Assembly: GCA_023957235.1 (NCBI GenBank)
Contig: JAMLHI010000001.1
Coordinates: 186,001-250,000, forward strand
Direction of reading: 5' to 3'
Length of the DNA: 64,000 nucleotides
Source: Chitinophagales bacterium
GTDB taxonomy: Bacteria; Bacteroidota; Bacteroidia; Chitinophagales; JADIYW01
Position numbers and translations under genes: made by a program
Notes under the pieces: model-generated
Seen by the model: the letters and a program-made list of their open reading frames with translations, nothing else
Databases searched by the model: none
What the model was told of the DNA's origin: nothing
Shown here: piece after piece, positions 7,351-29,675 of the stretch
Layout: every line of letters starts with the position of its first letter
Position numbering within the stretch: the stretch's first letter is position 1

Positions 7351-7416
7351 GGCAAAAAATCATTATTGAAACAAATTGTAATGTATCTATGTTCTTGTTA
7401 TGATAAACAATTGGAG

Positions 7417-8088
7417 ATGATCAATTGGAGTGAAATTGTTGTCCGTTTACTATTAGCAGCACTTTTTGGTGGATTTATTGGTTGGGAGAGAGAGCGTAAG
7501 GATTGGGCTGCCGGATTAAGAACTCACATGATGGTTTGTGTGGGTTCATGCCTCATTATGATAGTTTCTGCTTATGGTTTTGCAGATATTTTAGGTCGTA
7601 GTGATATTGATTTGGACCCTTCCCGAATTGCAGCTCAGGTTGTTAGTGGGATTGGTTTTTTGGGTGCTGGTGCAATTATTTTTTCCAAGCAAGGTACTGT
7701 TAGAGGTTTGACAACTGCTGCTGGGCTGTGGACTGTTGCAGGCATCGGATTGGCAACAGGTGGAGGTCTTTATTTTGCTGCAGGCTTGACTACCTTTATT
7801 GCTTTAGTGATTTTATGGGGAATTCAGCCTATAGAACAGCGATATTTTAAAAAATTTAGGCACATGACGCTGAGAATTATCGCCCAAAAGGAGATTCATC
7901 ACTCAGATTTATTAAAGAAAATATTGAGTTCAGAGAACTATAAAGTACAATCTTTCTCATTAGACAAAGAAGGAGATGATTTTGTTTTTATGATAGAAAT
8001 TGACAAGGTGGATATTGCCAAGCTAGATGAAATTGTTCAAAAGATTGAAAATGAAGAAGCTGTAAAAGAAGTTTTTTGGGCGAGATAA
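7417..8088 (+). CDS. MgtC/SapB family inner-membrane protein
   Basis: From the ATG at 7417 the protein has 223 residues. An N-terminal MgtC domain has about four membrane segments and the family motifs RLLLAALFGGFIGWERE, GLRTHMMVC, GIGFLGAGAI and VRGLTTAAGLW. A soluble C-terminal domain (about residue 145 on) resembles the ACT-like tail found in SapB-type members. MgtC homologues affect magnesium limitation and membrane potential through ATP synthase in some pathogens; the role here is not known. In-frame starts at 7366 (TTG) and 7381 (ATG) would add 17 or 12 residues unlike the family, so the third is preferred. The gene follows a repeat cluster and converges on the PKS gene. Confidence 0.85.
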   Translation: MINWSEIVVRLLLAALFGGFIGWERERKDWAAGLRTHMMVCVGSCLIMIVSAYGFADILGRSDIDLDPSRIAAQVVSGIGFLGAGAIIFSKQGTVRGLTTAAGLWTVAGIGLATGGGLYFAAGLTTFIALVILWGIQPIEQRYFKKFRHMTLRIIAQKEIHHSDLLKKILSSENYKVQSFSLDKEGDDFVFMIEIDKVDIAKLDEIVQKIENEEAVKEVFWAR

Positions 8089-8116: not shown

Positions 8117-8150
8117 TAAGGCTGCCTTTCTAGACAGCCTCTAATTTTAT
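8117..8150. terminator. Bidirectional terminator between MgtC-like gene and PKS gene
   Basis: AGGCTG (8119-8124) pairs with CAGCCT (8135-8140) around a partly paired loop, followed on the plus strand by CTAATTTTATT. It sits between two convergent stop codons only 58 bases apart. Confidence 0.55.
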
Positions 8151-11100
8151 TCATCATCCAAGGCTTTTAATAAGTCGTCAAGTGACATTTGGTTGACCTG
8201 ATTTTCAATTTCGTCTTTAGATATTGGGTCAGTGAATGCTCCTTTTGGAAGAGAAGCACTTGTTGAAGATGATGTTTCCTCCATAGTTGGAGAGTCAATG
8301 ATGTTTTTTTCGTCAGCAACAAATGCTGCATATTTTTCTACGGTTGGATAAGTCCATATACTTGATACTGCAATATTGATTTCAAAATCAGATTGAAACT
8401 TATTTTTCAATTGGACAGCCATTAAAGAATCTACTCCCATGCTTTTGAATGTTGCATCTTCCTTAATTTTTGTGCTTGGAATTTTTGTAATGGAGGAAAG
8501 GTGATTTTTAATGGTATTCTTAAAATGTCTTATTGCAGAAGCTCTGTTGGCAAATTCGAATGTTTCAGAAGGCGCTTCAGATACTTGAGACTCAGAGTCA
8601 TAACTTAAATTTTCGCTTAGATATTCAGTGTATTTTTCTATTGTTGGATAGGTCCAAATACTAGAAACAGATAAATCTATTCCTGCTTCTTCTTGAAGTT
8701 TATTTTTCAATTGAACGGCCATTAAAGAATCAATCCCCATGCTTTTAAAAGTTGCATCTTCTTTGATTTTGGAGGATGGTATTTTAGTTATGAGTGAAAC
8801 AAATTCTTTGATTTTAGATTTGTAATATCGTATAGCGCTGGTTTTATTGGTATATTTTATGATAGCTTCAGAAGGAAGGAGATCTGATTTTTGGGGAGTA
8901 TTTTTCAGCACTTTACTGAAGAAAGTATTATTAGTGATGCCACTATTGGATGCTGCCCATTGATTGAAATCTATGTCCATCAGCATATACTGGGCTCCAG
9001 GCATATCAAAAAGATTCTCAAAATATTCAGGCAATTGTTCTGGTTGGATAATAAACATCCCCTGTTCTGCCAATCTCTCTCCTCTTTTGATATCTGCTGC
9101 AGCAAGACCTATTTCTCCTATATTTCCAAAATTGATTGACAAGGCCGCCAATCCTTGTGATTTTCTATAGTTGGCAAGCTGGTCTAATGCCATATTTGCG
9201 GCAGTATAATTGGCTTGTCCAGCAGTACCTAATACTGATGCTCCTGATGAAAATAATACAAAAGATTCTAATGTCCTATTGGAGAAGTACTGATGCAGAT
9301 TCCAGCCTCCATTAATTTTTGGGGATAACACTTTGTTGAATTGTTCAACGGTAAGATTTAAAAATGCGCCATCATCCAATACGCCTGCAGCATGTACTAT
9401 TCCTTTGATGGCAGGCATAATGGTTTCAATTTCCATGACCAATTTGGCAAGCGAATCTGGATAAGTGATATCTGCTGAGAATACTTCTACTTTTACTCCT
9501 TGTTTTCTCAATTTATCTACTACAGGCTGTGTCTCAGGTTTCATTCCTTTTCGACTTACCAAGGCTATATTTTTTACTCCTTTTGAAGCCAACCAATTGG
9601 CAAATTCTAATCCTAGTCCGCTTGTTCCGCCTGTAATCAAATATGTTACTTGCCCATTGAAAGGAATTGCCTGTTGCGGTGCAGACTTGACTTCTTGGAG
9701 GAGAGGAGTGTACCACTTTTGTTGGCGGTGTACCCATTCTTTGTGGGCTGGATTTTGATTCAAGACTTGAATGATTTCTTCAGCAGAAGTATTTGAATTA
9801 ATATCAATTGTTATAGACTTCAATTCAGGAAACTCATTGCGAATAGTTCTAATCAATCCCCATAATGCTGTGCTAGGAATATGGATAGATTTGTCAAACT
9901 CACTGATGATCTGACCATTTTTAGTGATAGCATATAGTTGAGGTGCTTTGCCTTTTTGGTTGTAATGTTGTATTAAATCTCTAAAGCTAAAAATGGCATC
10001 TTGTTGGGTTGCTTTTGAATTTGTGCAAGAGAGATGTATAATAGCTTCAGGAATGGAAATCGGTTTTTCTGTAGAAGATATGATTTCTACTTCTACTCCT
10101 TGTTGAATTAATAGCGTAGCCACACTCTCTCCCAATCCTTCTAAATCTTTGATAATGAGTACCGATTTTGGAAGAGAAGTATTTTGTACATCTACTTCTT
10201 CCCAAATTGTTTCATAAATCAAGGAAGAATGTTTTTTTTGAGTCAATGAAAGGGAAGTGTCCTTAGAATTAGAGGTAGCTATTGTTTGATTTTCAACAAT
10301 ATTTTCAGTGGACATATTGGTGATTTGAGGTTTTTGGTCAAACCAAAATCTTTCTTTTTGCCATGGATAATTAGGTAATAATACAAATTGATGGATAGAA
10401 GGGTAAATTTTTTCCCAGTCTATTTTCAAGCCAGACTCAAAATATTTTCCTAAAGACTTATAAAAACTCAAAAGTTCATCTTTTTCTCTCCATAATGAAG
10501 GGATGGCTACTCCTGACTTATTAATATATTGAATATTATCTTGAATGGCAGTAGAAAGAACTGGATGAGGAGTAAGTTCAATAAATACAGCTTTATCATG
10601 TTGAACAATTTCTCTTATGACTGCACCGAATTGAACTGGGTTTCTAAGATTTTTTGCCCAATAATCTGCACTCAATTGTTCTCCTTTCATTTTTTCTTTA
10701 AGTGCTGTTGAAAAAAATTGGATATTGGAGTTAGAGGGTTGAAGTCCTTTCAAAGCGTTAGTTAATGGAGATAATATTTCATCCATTTGAGGGCTGTGGG
10801 AGGCGACATCTACTTTAATCAATCTACAAAACCTCCCTTCTGCTTCCAATTCATCTAATAGATTTTGTAAATATAAAGGGTCTCCAGCAATGACAGTAGA
10901 ATTTGGACTGTTTTGAACAGCGATAGATAGATAATTCTCTTTGTTTTGGAGTTTAGAATGAGCTTCTTCCAAAGTCAAATCAGTAACTGCCATTGCTCCT
11001 TTGCCACTCGTCTGTTTCATCAATAGGCTTCTAGTGCAGATGATATTTGCAGCTTCATCTAATGTAATCATATCTGCAAGAAATGCTGCGGCAACTTCTC

Positions 11101-13054
11101 CCATACTATGTCCGACTACAATATCAGGTTGAATTCCTTTGGATTTCCACAACTGCCCTAAAGCAATTTCTATTGCAATGAGTACTGGCTGAATGATATC
11201 TATTGCGTCAAAATTTTGCCCATTCAATTCCTCCAGCAAACTCCATTGTACATATTTGGAGAATGCTTGAGAACATTTGTCTATGCTATCTTTGAAGACA
11301 GGCTCACTCTGATAGAGCTCTTGAGCCATCCCTATCCATTGCGCTCCCTGACCAGGGCAAACAAATACGACTTTGGCATAGTCATCAGCGTCAAAGATTT
11401 TATGGTCTTCAAACACTATGTCAGCAAAGTCTTCCAACTGTTCTATCATTGAAGGTTTATCTTTTGCAACAAATACTTCTCTGACATCAAATATTGTTCT
11501 TTTGAGAGCTGCCATTGCGCAAATATCTTCCAATGAGTCAGGAGATATTTTAATAAATTGGGCATAAGCCTTGCTCAAAGATTGAAGGGCTTCTGGTGTT
11601 TTTGCAGACAAGGGTAATATAAAGATATCATTTCTCAAAGGCTCTGAAGGCTTTTGAGGTTCTATTTTAGGGCTTTCTCCGATTAAAACATGAGCATTCG
11701 TCCCCGTTACTCCAAATCCACTCACTCCTATATATTGATTAGTGGGATTCCAATTGATGTTTTGAGTTGGAACGCTTATCGGGATATTTTTCCAGTCAAT
11801 CAGCTCATTAGGAGTAACAAAATGTAAATTTTTAGGAATTGATTGATTCTGAATAGCAAGGACAGACTTGATCATGCCTGCCATTCCTGCAACCCCTTCA
11901 GTATGGCCTATATTTGTTTTGACAGAACCTACATATAAAGGATGCTCTTTGGTTTTGGAAGAGGAGAACACAGCAGATATAGCTTCCATTTCTATAGGGT
12001 CTCCAATTTTTGTTCCTGTCCCATGAGCTTCGATAAATGCAACTTGCTCAGGTTGGAGTTGTGCATTTTCAAGTGCTTTTTTAAGCAGTCGTTCTTGCGC
12101 TTTTACATTAGGTGCTGTGAATCCATTACTTCTCCCATCTTGATTGACAGCCGAACCTTTGATGACAGCAAGGATATTATCTCCATCTCTTTGAGCATCC
12201 TTTAGTCTTTTGAGGATGAAAATACCACTACCTTCTGAACGGATAAATCCATTGGCTTCATTAGAGAAAGATTTACATCTAGAGTCTTTTGATAATGAAT
12301 TGAGAGAGGAAAAATAAATTGTAAACTCAGGGTCAATGATCACATTGGCTGCTCCTGCAATGGCTAAATTACATTCCTGATTTCTTAATGATTGGACAGC
12401 CAGATGGGTAGCTACTAGTGATGAGGAGCAAGCCGTGTCTAATGAAACAGAAGGGCCTTGTAATCCCATTAGATAAGAGATTCTACCTGAATTAGAACAT
12501 ATTGCTGAACCAGTATATGAATATGGATTAATTAATGTATAATCTCCTGATCTGAAGTGCCTTTTTTGATAATCATTATTAGTGACACCTATAAAAACTC
12601 CAGTATTGGAATCTGTCAAAGATTGAAGTGGAATTCCTGCATTTTCTAATGCTTCATAAGTTACCTCCAGCAATATTCTTTGTTGAGGGTCCATACTTTC
12701 TATTTCAGCATAAGATAAATCAAAGAAAGAGCCATCAAATTGGTCGATATTGTCCAAAAAACCGCCCTGTTTGACAATCATTTTCCCCGGAGTATCATAT
12801 TGTTCATCATATAAGGATTTTGCATCAAATCTGCTTTCGGGAATATCAGTAATGGCATCAACGCCATTGGATAGAAGCTTCCAGTAGTCCTGAGAAGTAT
12901 ATATACCTCCGGGCAATCGCATGGCCATACCAATAATTGCAATAGGTTCAAACTTTTTACTCTTTTCCTCAAGGAGTCCGGATTTGAGTTTTTTTATAGC
13001 CGTCAATGCATCTTTTAACTGCTGATGTAGTCTTTCTTTTTCTTCCTCTTGCAT
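8147..13054 (-). CDS. Type I polyketide synthase, KS-AT-KR-ACP-ACP
   Basis: A 1635-residue single-module synthase. Domain order: charged N-terminal coiled coil (1-33, possible docking helix); ketosynthase about 36-460 with Cys209 in DTACSSS, His344 in EAHGTGT and His384 in NIGHTEG; acyltransferase about 562-860 with Ser650 in GHSMGE and VASH at 750-753; ketoreductase about 945-1330 with TGGTSGLGLE, LDD at 1226-1228, and Ser/Tyr1283/Asn1287; two acyl carrier domains with Ser1443 and Ser1543 in DSLMAVQLKNK; and an acidic C-terminal tail. No dehydratase, enoylreductase or thioesterase is present. The ACPs are exactly 100 residues apart and very similar, so they arose by tandem duplication. The LDD motif is usual for B-type ketoreductases. 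The AT motif does not settle malonyl versus methylmalonyl. No partner biosynthetic genes are adjacent; the product is unknown. Confidence 0.92.
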   Translation of the reverse strand: MQEEEKERLHQQLKDALTAIKKLKSGLLEEKSKKFEPIAIIGMAMRLPGGIYTSQDYWKLLSNGVDAITDIPESRFDAKSLYDEQYDTPGKMIVKQGGFLDNIDQFDGSFFDLSYAEIESMDPQQRILLEVTYEALENAGIPLQSLTDSNTGVFIGVTNNDYQKRHFRSGDYTLINPYSYTGSAICSNSGRISYLMGLQGPSVSLDTACSSSLVATHLAVQSLRNQECNLAIAGAANVIIDPEFTIYFSSLNSLSKDSRCKSFSNEANGFIRSEGSGIFILKRLKDAQRDGDNILAVIKGSAVNQDGRSNGFTAPNVKAQERLLKKALENAQLQPEQVAFIEAHGTGTKIGDPIEMEAISAVFSSSKTKEHPLYVGSVKTNIGHTEGVAGMAGMIKSVLAIQNQSIPKNLHFVTPNELIDWKNIPISVPTQNINWNPTNQYIGVSGFGVTGTNAHVLIGESPKIEPQKPSEPLRNDIFILPLSAKTPEALQSLSKAYAQFIKISPDSLEDICAMAALKRTIFDVREVFVAKDKPSMIEQLEDFADIVFEDHKIFDADDYAKVVFVCPGQGAQWIGMAQELYQSEPVFKDSIDKCSQAFSKYVQWSLLEELNGQNFDAIDIIQPVLIAIEIALGQLWKSKGIQPDIVVGHSMGEVAAAFLADMITLDEAANIICTRSLLMKQTSGKGAMAVTDLTLEEAHSKLQNKENYLSIAVQNSPNSTVIAGDPLYLQNLLDELEAEGRFCRLIKVDVASHSPQMDEILSPLTNALKGLQPSNSNIQFFSTALKEKMKGEQLSADYWAKNLRNPVQFGAVIREIVQHDKAVFIELTPHPVLSTAIQDNIQYINKSGVAIPSLWREKDELLSFYKSLGKYFESGLKIDWEKIYPSIHQFVLLPNYPWQKERFWFDQKPQITNMSTENIVENQTIATSNSKDTSLSLTQKKHSSLIYETIWEEVDVQNTSLPKSVLIIKDLEGLGESVATLLIQQGVEVEIISSTEKPISIPEAIIHLSCTNSKATQQDAIFSFRDLIQHYNQKGKAPQLYAITKNGQIISEFDKSIHIPSTALWGLIRTIRNEFPELKSITIDINSNTSAEEIIQVLNQNPAHKEWVHRQQKWYTPLLQEVKSAPQQAIPFNGQVTYLITGGTSGLGLEFANWLASKGVKNIALVSRKGMKPETQPVVDKLRKQGVKVEVFSADITYPDSLAKLVMEIETIMPAIKGIVHAAGVLDDGAFLNLTVEQFNKVLSPKINGGWNLHQYFSNRTLESFVLFSSGASVLGTAGQANYTAANMALDQLANYRKSQGLAALSINFGNIGEIGLAAADIKRGERLAEQGMFIIQPEQLPEYFENLFDMPGAQYMLMDIDFNQWAASNSGITNNTFFSKVLKNTPQKSDLLPSEAIIKYTNKTSAIRYYKSKIKEFVSLITKIPSSKIKEDATFKSMGIDSLMAVQLKNKLQEEAGIDLSVSSIWTYPTIEKYTEYLSENLSYDSESQVSEAPSETFEFANRASAIRHFKNTIKNHLSSITKIPSTKIKEDATFKSMGVDSLMAVQLKNKFQSDFEINIAVSSIWTYPTVEKYAAFVADEKNIIDSPTMEETSSSTSASLPKGAFTDPISKDEIENQVNQMSLDDLLKALDDE

Positions 13055-13248: not shown

Positions 13249-14205
13249 ATGAAAGTCACAGAAATTCTTCAGGAAAATATAGGAAAGAAGCTAGTCTCTT
13301 TTGAGTTATTGCCACCGCTTAAAGGGAAGAGTATAGAGCATCTGTATAACATACTAGAGCCTTTGATTGATTTTAACCCTCCTTTTATTGATGTGACATA
13401 TCATCGGGAAGAGTACGAATATAAAATCACGCCAAATGGATATTTTGAAAAAATTGCTGTGAGAAAAAGGCCCGGGACTGTAGGCATCTGTTCTGCTATT
13501 CAACATAAGTATGAGATTGAAGCTGTACCACATTTGATTTGTGGAGGATTCTCCAAACAAGAAACGGAGAATGCACTGATTGATTTACACTTTTTAGGAA
13601 TTCACAATATTTTGGCACTCAGGGGAGATGCTCGTCGTCTTGATAAAACTTTTGTGCCAGAAAAGGATGGGCATCATTATGCAGTGAATTTAGTGAAACA
13701 AATCAATCAAATGAATCAAGGAGTGTATTTGGATAAAGATCTAGTGGATGGTGCAAAAACAGATTTCTGTATAGGAGTAGCAGGGTATCCTGAAAAGCAT
13801 TTTGAAGCAGCAAATTATGAAGAAGATTTGCTGTTTTTGAAGGCCAAAGTAGAGGCTGGAGCAGATTATATAGTGACACAGATGTTTTTTGACAATCAGG
13901 TGTTTTTTAAATTTGTTAAAGATTGTAGAGACTTAGGAATAAATGTTCCTATTATCCCAGGTATTAAACCATTGACTAAAATGGGTCAGTTGAAGGGGAT
14001 TCCAAGTAATTTCTATATTAATTTTCCAGATGAGTTGGTGAAGGAAGCCAGAAAATGTAAAGATGATCTCGCTGTCAGAGAATTAGGTACTGAATGGTGC
14101 ACTGCCCAATCTAAGGAGTTATTTGAACAAGGAGCTTCTTGTATTCACTTTTATACGATGAGTGATCAAAAGGTGGTTTCAAAAGTTTGTTCAGAAATTT
14201 TATAA
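13249..14205 (+). CDS. metF: Methylenetetrahydrofolate reductase
   Basis: A 318-residue TIM-barrel flavoprotein of the MetF family, which reduces 5,10-methylene-THF to 5-methyl-THF for methionine synthesis. Family features seen are SFELLPPLKG (catalytic-Glu region near residue 19), FIDVTYH, GICSAIQHKYEIEAVPHLICGG, the FAD-site region NILALRGDA (about 119-128), GVAGYPEKH, and GADYIVTQMFFD. The C-terminal GASCIHFYTMS is also typical. The length is close to that of other bacterial MetF proteins. Transcribed divergently from the PKS gene, with a candidate promoter close upstream. A DMT-family exporter follows on the same strand after 75 bases. Confidence 0.92.
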   Translation: MKVTEILQENIGKKLVSFELLPPLKGKSIEHLYNILEPLIDFNPPFIDVTYHREEYEYKITPNGYFEKIAVRKRPGTVGICSAIQHKYEIEAVPHLICGGFSKQETENALIDLHFLGIHNILALRGDARRLDKTFVPEKDGHHYAVNLVKQINQMNQGVYLDKDLVDGAKTDFCIGVAGYPEKHFEAANYEEDLLFLKAKVEAGADYIVTQMFFDNQVFFKFVKDCRDLGINVPIIPGIKPLTKMGQLKGIPSNFYINFPDELVKEARKCKDDLAVRELGTEWCTAQSKELFEQGASCIHFYTMSDQKVVSKVCSEIL

Positions 14206-27315: not shown

Positions 27316-28308
27316 TTAAACTCTTGCAAGGGTTTTTTGAAAATAAATATAGTGTTCTTGTGCGCATTTTTCCCAACTAAATTCGCTGGCTCTTTCTAAA
27401 GATTTTTTGCTTAGGGTCTCCCAGTGTGGTTGATTTCTACTGATTGCTGCCATAGCATCGCTCCATGTTGCCACTTGATAAGGGTCGCATAAAATACCAT
27501 TGTCTTTTACAATCTCTTCACAAGCAGAGCCTTTGGAGGTGATGACAGGAGTGCCACATGCCATTGCTTCTATCAATGGAAGTCCAAAACTTTCTCTGTA
27601 GGAGGGTAAAATAAATGCTCTGGCTTCTTGCATATAAATTGCTATCTCTTTTTGTGGTAGCGCATGAGCGATAAGTGTGACTCCATCTATATTGATGACA
27701 TTAGGATATCCTGGAACAATGAGTGTCAAAGGCAGACGTTGTTGTTTGTCTAGTTGTTGGTAAGCCGCTAATAAGGTGGTAATATTTTTTACAGGTTGAA
27801 ATACTGATACATGGAGTAAAAAATCTCTTCTACTATTTTGAATGGGGAAAAATAATTGTTGATTTAATCCATGATATATCTGCTGTATTTTAGAGGAGTC
27901 AATTTGGAGCTCCCTGACGATTTCTTCTTTGGCAAATTTAGATACAGTGATAATGCCTTCAATATTATCTCTAAAATAATTCCAATACCATTTTCTTTTC
28001 CAATTGATAGCATAACCTTTCAATTGTTGTTTCCATCCTCTATAAGTATAATGATGGGGCATAGAGAAGTTGGAGGCTCCATGTACGGTAGCTACAAGTG
28101 GAAATTTCCTTTTGATAAATCTTTTATTTGGGTTTTTCCCTCCGGTACATGTTGGATCCCAATACAAATCAACTTGTTCTGGCAAAGGGTCACTTTTCCC
28201 AAAGGGAATAAATTCAACCCCCTTTCCAGTCAAGATACTTGTGATGTGTTCATAATATACCCGTACACTATTCAGATATTTATCCGGAGTCCAAACGCCT
28301 ATTTTCAT
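27316..28308 (-). CDS. GT4-family glycosyltransferase
   Basis: A 330-residue GT-B glycosyltransferase. The C-terminal donor domain shows LLHVSVFQPVKNITTLLAAY, then FILPSYRESFGLPLIEAMACG with the E-x7-E motif, followed by TPVITSKGSACEEIV. The acceptor half has LVATVHGASNFSMP and GIITVSKFAKEEIV. It is retaining in other members of the family and cytosolic or peripheral. Its start overlaps the flippase stop by four bases, and the acyltransferase follows after three bases, so these three genes form a translationally coupled surface-glycan unit. Sugar unknown. Confidence 0.88.
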   Translation of the reverse strand: MKIGVWTPDKYLNSVRVYYEHITSILTGKGVEFIPFGKSDPLPEQVDLYWDPTCTGGKNPNKRFIKRKFPLVATVHGASNFSMPHHYTYRGWKQQLKGYAINWKRKWYWNYFRDNIEGIITVSKFAKEEIVRELQIDSSKIQQIYHGLNQQLFFPIQNSRRDFLLHVSVFQPVKNITTLLAAYQQLDKQQRLPLTLIVPGYPNVINIDGVTLIAHALPQKEIAIYMQEARAFILPSYRESFGLPLIEAMACGTPVITSKGSACEEIVKDNGILCDPYQVATWSDAMAAISRNQPHWETLSKKSLERASEFSWEKCAQEHYIYFQKTLARV

Positions 28309-29675
28309 TTGTTATGGATAATATTTTTATTCAAATTGATAAAAGGAATATACGCAATATAATATCCAAACTTTTTCTTGATATATAAAGTGCCTATGAT
28401 ATTCCATGCTGCCATGCTGACTGCATTCCCGATAGCTGCTCCTTCAATGCCCCATTTGGGTATAAAGAAGATGATTAAGGTGAGATTGATAAATGCCCCT
28501 ATTAATGAGATGTTTCTAAATTGCTTGTGATAACCACTCACATTTAATAATTGTGCGACAGGTCCACAGGCAACATTAAATATTTGACCAATTGCAATAA
28601 TACTAAGTGCTAATGCTCCTGGTAGAAATTTTTCACCATAAGCAATATATATCATCAACTTAGACCCGAAAATAATCATAGCAAAAATTGGAATATTCAT
28701 GAGGAAAATGAGGCGGGCGAATTTAACACAGAGCTTCATTACTTCTTCATGTTTACCTTGGTGATACAGTTGGCTGATTTTGGGTTGTATAGTAGTGTTC
28801 ATAGCCACTAATCCCATTGCAGCAATGGAAGCAACATTTCCACACGTCTTATATATACCTACCAATTCAGTGCTAGTATAAAAAGGAAGCATATAGGCAT
28901 CTGCGAAATTATTGATAAAGAAACCTAGATAAGTGAATAGCATAGGAAATGCTACAGCAAGAATGACAGAATAGTCAATTTTGACGAGTACCTCTTGATT
29001 TGAACTTGGTTTTTTAAAATGTTTATGAATTGATAGCTGCGAAAACAACCATGCTAGCAAGCACCCTGATATAAATTGTAGATATAGTGGATTGTAATCA
29101 TTTAATAGAAATAAAGTCAAAAGAATGATAACAACTACTCTGGAAATCAAGGTGATAATATTGTTGTAATTAGCCGATTTAATTTGGAGAATAGCCCGCA
29201 ATACAAAATTATTGTATTCTGACATCAATAAGAAGATAAGGAAAAAGCCAGAAGCTTGAAAGAAAAATTTCAGATGAGGAACATTCCAAGATTTAGATTG
29301 CCATTCTGCAATAAAATACATGATTAGCATACAGATCAACCAAAAAAAAGCAATTAGATGCAAGCTTTTCTTATAAATAGCCCATGCTGTAGCTAGATTG
29401 TATTTTTCTCTGTATTCAGGAATCAATTTGAGCATTGCATCTTTAATTCCAAAATTGCCCAAAATGATAAATGCAGCCATAAAGGTCATCAAATTTGTTA
29501 GCCAACCAGAGACCTCTGGTCCATAGACTCTCGCAATAATCACTCCTGAAACAAATCGAAGAAAAAATATAGCCCCCATAGAGAGGAGTGTATGCAGACT
29601 TCGAGTTGCAACAAAAGAAAAATTGGGATCTTTTAGTGCATTTTCAATTTTGTTTTGAATCTTTTTTATTGGCAA
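28305..29675 (-). CDS. Oligosaccharide flippase (Wzx/MATE-like)
   Basis: A 456-residue protein with about 12-14 membrane helices. Recognisable features are FFLRFVSGVIIARVYGPEVSGWL at the first helix, an Asn/Asp-containing helix GFFINNFADAYMLPFYTS, and LNVSGYHKQFRNISLIGAFINL. It belongs to the polysaccharide-transport (MOP) superfamily that flips lipid-linked oligosaccharides across the inner membrane. Upstream of a GT4 gene with a four-base overlap. A second flippase of the same superfamily is at 58310. Confidence 0.88.
   Translation of the reverse strand: MPIKKIQNKIENALKDPNFSFVATRSLHTLLSMGAIFFLRFVSGVIIARVYGPEVSGWLTNLMTFMAAFIILGNFGIKDAMLKLIPEYREKYNLATAWAIYKKSLHLIAFFWLICMLIMYFIAEWQSKSWNVPHLKFFFQASGFFLIFLLMSEYNNFVLRAILQIKSANYNNIITLISRVVVIILLTLFLLNDYNPLYLQFISGCLLAWLFSQLSIHKHFKKPSSNQEVLVKIDYSVILAVAFPMLFTYLGFFINNFADAYMLPFYTSTELVGIYKTCGNVASIAAMGLVAMNTTIQPKISQLYHQGKHEEVMKLCVKFARLIFLMNIPIFAMIIFGSKLMIYIAYGEKFLPGALALSIIAIGQIFNVACGPVAQLLNVSGYHKQFRNISLIGAFINLTLIIFFIPKWGIEGAAIGNAVSMAAWNIIGTLYIKKKFGYYIAYIPFINLNKNIIHNK

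Follow-up and report, generated by a model that had tools for sequence, protein, structure and literature searches.

CurL of the curacin A pathway (PDB 4mz0, 4MYZ) is part of a docking pair that has been characterised as class 2, a type in which each domain supplies two helices (PMC9113145). The KS-AT-KR-ACP modules of DEBS and Lsd14 are actinobacterial, use class 1 docking and are encoded in contiguous clusters (established knowledge; PMC9113145), and mycocerosic acid synthase (MAS) has the domain order KS-AT-DH-ER-KR-ACP. Isolated polyketide synthase (PKS) modules are labelled 'orphan' by genome miners and set aside. Here we analysed one such module, PKS-A, encoded in a stretch of 64,000 nucleotides (the window; G000:C1:186001-250000) of a 3.0-Mb, 17-contig draft genome.

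PKS-A shares with CurL a KS-AT core that aligns end to end, an N-terminal coil and the KS clade, and it may resemble CurL-type class 2 modules in its C-terminal acidic tail, which is predicted to form two helices. Unlike CurL, its subunits are encoded at unlinked loci, its ACP is duplicated and its host is an uncultured member of the Chitinophagales; also in contrast to the CurL system, no NRPS or loading module was seen with PKS-A. Domain order and a comparable KS-AT score link it to the DEBS and Lsd14 modules. The interest lies in the dispersed assembly line, the kind of enzyme itself not being new. Comparison with sister genera turns an apparent orphan into the probable middle of a recoverable pathway, whose order can be read from the docking ends.

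Domain structure of PKS-A

PKS-A is encoded by one intact open reading frame with an ATG start. The following features were assigned:

13249-14205: metF, divergent from PKS-A
8147..13054, minus strand: PKS-A, a KS-AT-KR-ACP-ACP module of 1635 aa (open reading frame, Pfam domains)
12950..13054, minus strand: N-terminal coiled-coil docking domain, CurL-like, residues 1-35 (phmmer with residues 1-50; present in orthologues of genomes with PKS-B)
11480..12949, minus strand: ketosynthase (KS) with C-terminal extension, residues 36-525 (Pfam; KS tree with CurL, DEBS and Lsd14)
10427..11368, minus strand: acyltransferase (AT), GHSMGE...VASH, methylmalonyl-like motif, residues 563-876 (Pfam, motif; VASH as in epothilone AT7, PMC8058987)
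9647..10297, minus strand: putative ketoreductase structural half, about residues 920-1136 (no domain found; position between AT and KR)
9119..9646, minus strand: ketoreductase (KR), LDD motif, predicted B-type, residues 1137-1312 (Pfam, motif; PMC11228615)
8618..8815, minus strand: ACP1, GIDSLM (PP-binding domain, motif; helical bundle in the model)
8318..8515, minus strand: ACP2, GVDSLM (PP-binding domain, motif, model; tandem pair in the window's genus only)
8147..8230, minus strand: docking-like tail at the C-terminus, with two short helices and the end sequence MSLDDLLKALDDE (conserved, with a variable linker; model helices 229-237 and 241-249 at low-to-middling confidence)
7366-8088: MgtC-like gene, convergent with PKS-A

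The Pfam matches were far past the cut-off (ketoacyl-synt 1e-83, Acyl_transf_1 9e-84, KR 8e-65, and two PP-binding domains), the KS extension domain was also recognised, and DH, ER and TE were absent. The KS carries DTACSSS, EAHGTGT and NIGH, the AT GHSMGE and VASHSPQ, and the KR LDD and FSSGASVLGTAGQANY. Together with the two ACP motifs, these agree with the original prediction that all active-site residues are present. Catalytic residues for KS, an integral AT and ACP thus stand in a single polypeptide, as in cis-AT modular type I PKSs. The VASH motif is that of epothilone AT7 and has been discussed in connection with methylmalonyl specificity, while HAFH is a malonyl AT motif (PMC8058987). 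The LDD motif marks B-type ketoreductases (PMC11228615), and the KR of PKS-A, which has it, is therefore predicted to be B-type. The flanking genes are the MgtC-like gene and metF, as first annotated, and their orientations leave PKS-A monocistronic.

In searches with the KS alone, CurL, Lsd14, DEBS and PikA1 outscored MAS, the trans-AT enzyme PksL and fungal LovB; the entry 7zma ranked first only because the scores of two of its KSs were summed. In the KS tree, PKS-A and two further family proteins described below, PKS-B and PKS-C, each form a family-specific clade (the chimera of G008 excepted), and with few named references in the tree these clades fall within the CurL-DEBS-Lsd14 group (97/97), apart from the trans-AT 7zma. 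The phylogeny that had been proposed as a check thus groups the KS of PKS-A with cis-AT modular enzymes. PKS-A has an integral AT and a KS outside the trans-AT clade, which sets it apart from trans-AT PKSs. Neither KS similarity nor the tree favours the iterative enzyme that had been offered as an option.

Between G000 and G001, PKS-A is 82% identical, with pN of 0.111 and a saturated pS of 0.729; PKS-B and PKS-C gave similar pN/pS values. As judged from these sequences, PKS-A is under strong purifying selection at its new site, and the low pN relative to pS implies that it was maintained after the move. Together with the intact motifs, this is in line with the early impression of a functional protein. 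The tandem ACP was found in 3/3 species of the window's genus, while the ACP is single in genera g3 and g4 and the g2 gene is truncated; ACP trees were too short for dating the duplication.

Partner proteins in the same genome

Apart from PKS-A itself, nothing in the window matched a KS, a PP-binding domain, a PF00975 thioesterase or a PPTase. A KS search of the whole genome detected two further large PKS proteins, and genome-wide searches also returned a thioesterase and a PPTase:

C11:45935-52504: PKS-B, KS-AT-DH-ER-KR-ACP, 2189 aa
C11:286667-289939 (L011:16667-19939): PKS-C, KS-AT-ACP, 1090 aa
C15:55930-56595: discrete PF00975 thioesterase, the one good match in the genome
C15: Sfp-type PPTase, one in the genome

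The absence of a partner module, thioesterase and PPTase, as originally predicted, therefore holds for the window and not for the genome, where all of these lie on C11 and C15, unlinked to the window; the genome-wide search for a PPTase suggested at that time yielded the single gene on C15. The PPTase and thioesterase are 35% and 40% identical, respectively, to their in-cluster counterparts in relatives. PKS-C carries the AT motif HAFH. The best PDB match of PKS-B is MAS (999 bits vs 726 for DEBS), with which it shares the domain order; because PKS-B is closest to this synthase, it could iterate before handing the chain on. Unlike MAS, PKS-B has a docking-like C-terminal tail and adjoins wza-wzz. 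A methylmalonyl-CoA mutase is also encoded in the genome.

Gene order within the family

The family was sampled with 13 genomes from four genera (g1-g4), and PKS-A is present in 13/13. The constant anchor of the PKS locus is mnmE-(ompA)-wza-wzz. In G005 (g4), the order is mnmE(-), then ompA, wza, a wzz-like gene, PKS-B and PKS-A, with PKS-C, thioesterase and PPTase grouped at a separate site. In G003 (g2), a short contig shows PKS-A immediately after the end of PKS-B. The g3 genomes (G004, G006-G012) show mnmE(-), then wza, a wzz-like gene, PKS-A and PKS-C, usually followed by thioesterase, PPTase and a GtrA-like gene and, in several cases, by MBOAT and flippase genes past the PKS cluster; PKS-B is absent from these genomes. 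No thioesterase gene was detected next to the PKS cluster of G008 or G011, and the enzyme may therefore have an editing role.

In the three species of the window's genus (g1; G000, G001, G002), PKS-A is unlinked to PKS-B and PKS-C, and the mnmE-ompA-wza-wzz site is held by PKS-B (G000 and G002; in G001 the ompA-wza-wzz part was seen). Among the genera compared, the parts are dispersed only here. B-A-C is contiguous in none of the genomes examined, and the full order was pieced together from different genera. The original prediction had set a stand-alone 'orphan' against a longer cluster broken by rearrangement, and the latter is largely what we found, because outside the window's genus PKS-A adjoins another PKS gene: relatives carry it beside PKS-B or PKS-C, usually with thioesterase and PPTase. 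Partner modules are thus co-encoded with PKS-A in other genera, as for modular PKSs.

Two genomes carry altered genes. In G008, the gene at the PKS-A position lacks the N-terminal coil, and its domains are of mixed origin:

L059:9485-13945 (G008): natural PKS chimera, PKS-B-type KS with PKS-A-type AT-KR-ACP

In trees, its KS falls with PKS-B (100/100) and its AT, KR and ACP with PKS-A. The simplest reading would be a deletion between PKS-B and PKS-A when these lay side by side, from which it would follow that the two were once neighbours in the G008 lineage too. In G002, PKS-A consists of two open frames broken at the AT/KR linker (L061:6556-9357 and 9420-11468), which retain the KS, AT, KR and ACP motifs; this may reflect a frameshift or a module that is genuinely split. 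The G002 gene sits downstream of a TetR-OEP-HlyD-MFS efflux set.

Within the family these arrangements (B-A, A-C, full dispersal and the KS-swapped chimera of G008) make up a natural series in which one can ask how an assembly line copes with lost linkage, a lost module or an exchanged KS.

Putative docking ends

A phmmer search with residues 1-50 of PKS-A hit the start of CurL first (PDB 4mz0; E=1.3e-5), then Lsd14 and DEBS module 5; part of the CurL match falls on the KS start itself. An N-terminal coil thus precedes the KS, as in class 2 docking. PKS-A and PKS-C start with a coiled coil and PKS-B has no N-terminal docking coil; PKS-A and PKS-B end with a conserved LSLDDL-type helix motif, which PKS-C lacks, ending instead in a conserved WHEI-type tail. 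The PKS-C tail after the ACP is conserved over ~55 residues around WHEI...WFKK in relatives (L011:16667-19939) and is perhaps a release or membrane element.

The tail of PKS-A is conserved throughout the family while the preceding linker varies. It was modelled as two short helices after the two ACP bundles (with pLDDT near 60 in the tail and mostly 80-89 in the ACPs), and a short-sequence search with the tail alone gave no match in the PDB. The coil of PKS-A shares 61% identity with its counterpart in G005, a genome with PKS-B, vs 25-42% over alignable residues in the g3 genomes that lack PKS-B; in G008 it is absent. The coil of PKS-C is 45-71% identical across the family. Judging by these few genomes, the co-variation of the termini would fit the order B to A to C. 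The suggestion that coil and acidic tail serve as docking domains for partners encoded elsewhere thus gains from the CurL match, the conservation and the tail model, as far as sequence comparison goes. With both a coil and a tail, PKS-A could also dock to itself.

Proposed assembly line and alternative explanations

Most probably, PKS-A serves as the second extension module in a cis-AT modular PKS made up of three proteins, in the order PKS-B, PKS-A, PKS-C. PKS-B would load an acyl starter and add one or more fully reduced units, and its C-terminal DDLSLDDLSKLLDDEL helix would dock onto the N-terminal coil of PKS-A. PKS-A would then add one unit, probably from methylmalonyl-CoA, and reduce it, giving a D-3-hydroxyacyl chain bound to one or the other ACP, before its MSLDDLLKALDDE tail docks onto the coil of PKS-C, which is expected to add a malonyl unit without reduction. 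The predicted product, a 5-hydroxy-3-oxoacyl chain or the corresponding lactone, would leave by lactonisation or with the aid of a thioesterase or an acyltransferase and is perhaps bound for the cell surface, given the Wza/Wzz linkage. In the window's genus the ancestral locus would have been broken up, with docking domains taking over from operon linkage.

Alternatively, PKS-A might work iteratively and on its own as a beta-hydroxyacyl synthase, elongating an acyl starter without partners and delivering the 3-hydroxyacyl product to a lipid or glycan. Its monocistronic gene, unlinked to any PKS in G000, and the g3 genomes, which have no PKS-B to feed it, would suit such an enzyme, as would the tandem ACPs, which are known from some iterative synthases. 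We nevertheless regard this as improbable: in every other genus PKS-A adjoins another PKS gene and is thus not the sole PKS gene of its pathway, its ends appear class-2-like, and by score and tree its KS is nearer to the modular CurL, DEBS and Lsd14 than to MAS or to fungal and trans-AT KSs.

Dispersal of the cluster in 3/3 species of the window's genus and the split G002 gene might also indicate a stranded, decaying remnant of a pathway that broke when the cluster scattered. This is very unlikely for a gene of full length with intact motifs and a pN/pS (pS saturated) like that of PKS-B and PKS-C, in a genome that has kept PKS-B, PKS-C, thioesterase and PPTase; even the G002 halves stay open with their motifs. 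That the scatter is an artefact of assembly or binning, the genes being truly adjacent, might be asked of any draft in 17 contigs, but it is largely refuted and hardly credible, since PKS-A lies well within a contig of 637 kb and has continuous neighbours, the separate assembly G001 has the same flanks, and about 234 kb separate PKS-B from PKS-C on a single contig of 422 kb. The three-protein assembly line thus remains our preferred explanation.

Neighbouring surface-polysaccharide genes

In every family arrangement in which the site is visible, wza-wzz lies beside PKS genes. This neighbourhood suggests a surface role of the polyketide, though a shared chromosomal site could also explain it; the Wza, Wzz and flippase neighbours in relatives make transfer of the PKS-A chain to a glycan possible. 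Its recurrence, a second family of the order included, points to a possible and testable link between polyketide and surface glycan. The linkage is not general in the order: it was seen in f1 and f14, and the other compared genomes have no Wza near a PKS. We consider it conceivable, if rather doubtful, that the whole forms a polyketide-glycan pathway of uncultured Chitinophagales, in which a working three-subunit PKS is held together by docking domains only, its operon scattered over five unlinked loci, and its polyketide, through a Wza/Wzz-type machine, is joined to surface polysaccharide or exported along with it. Literature on PKSs with Wza in Bacteroidetes, split PKS clusters and MAS in Bacteroidetes gave no description of the PKS-A locus.

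A glycan flippase gene (28305-29675) lies 15 kb from PKS-A in the window and in G001. A relocation of PKS-A towards this gene was considered and dropped, the flippase homologue being unlinked in G002 and G005. The flippase and glycosyltransferase pair at 27316-29675 of the window is related to the pair beside the g3 PKS cluster.

A scan of database contigs yielded five loci, two of them in the window's family. G084 (L080:4147-17486) and G025 (L088:3657-12265), members of another family within the order, carry a large PKS distinct from those above, again beside wza- and wzz-like genes. In family f19, a 2800-residue PKS is directly followed by a PPTase-like gene (L078:7561-16718, L079:3888-13044).
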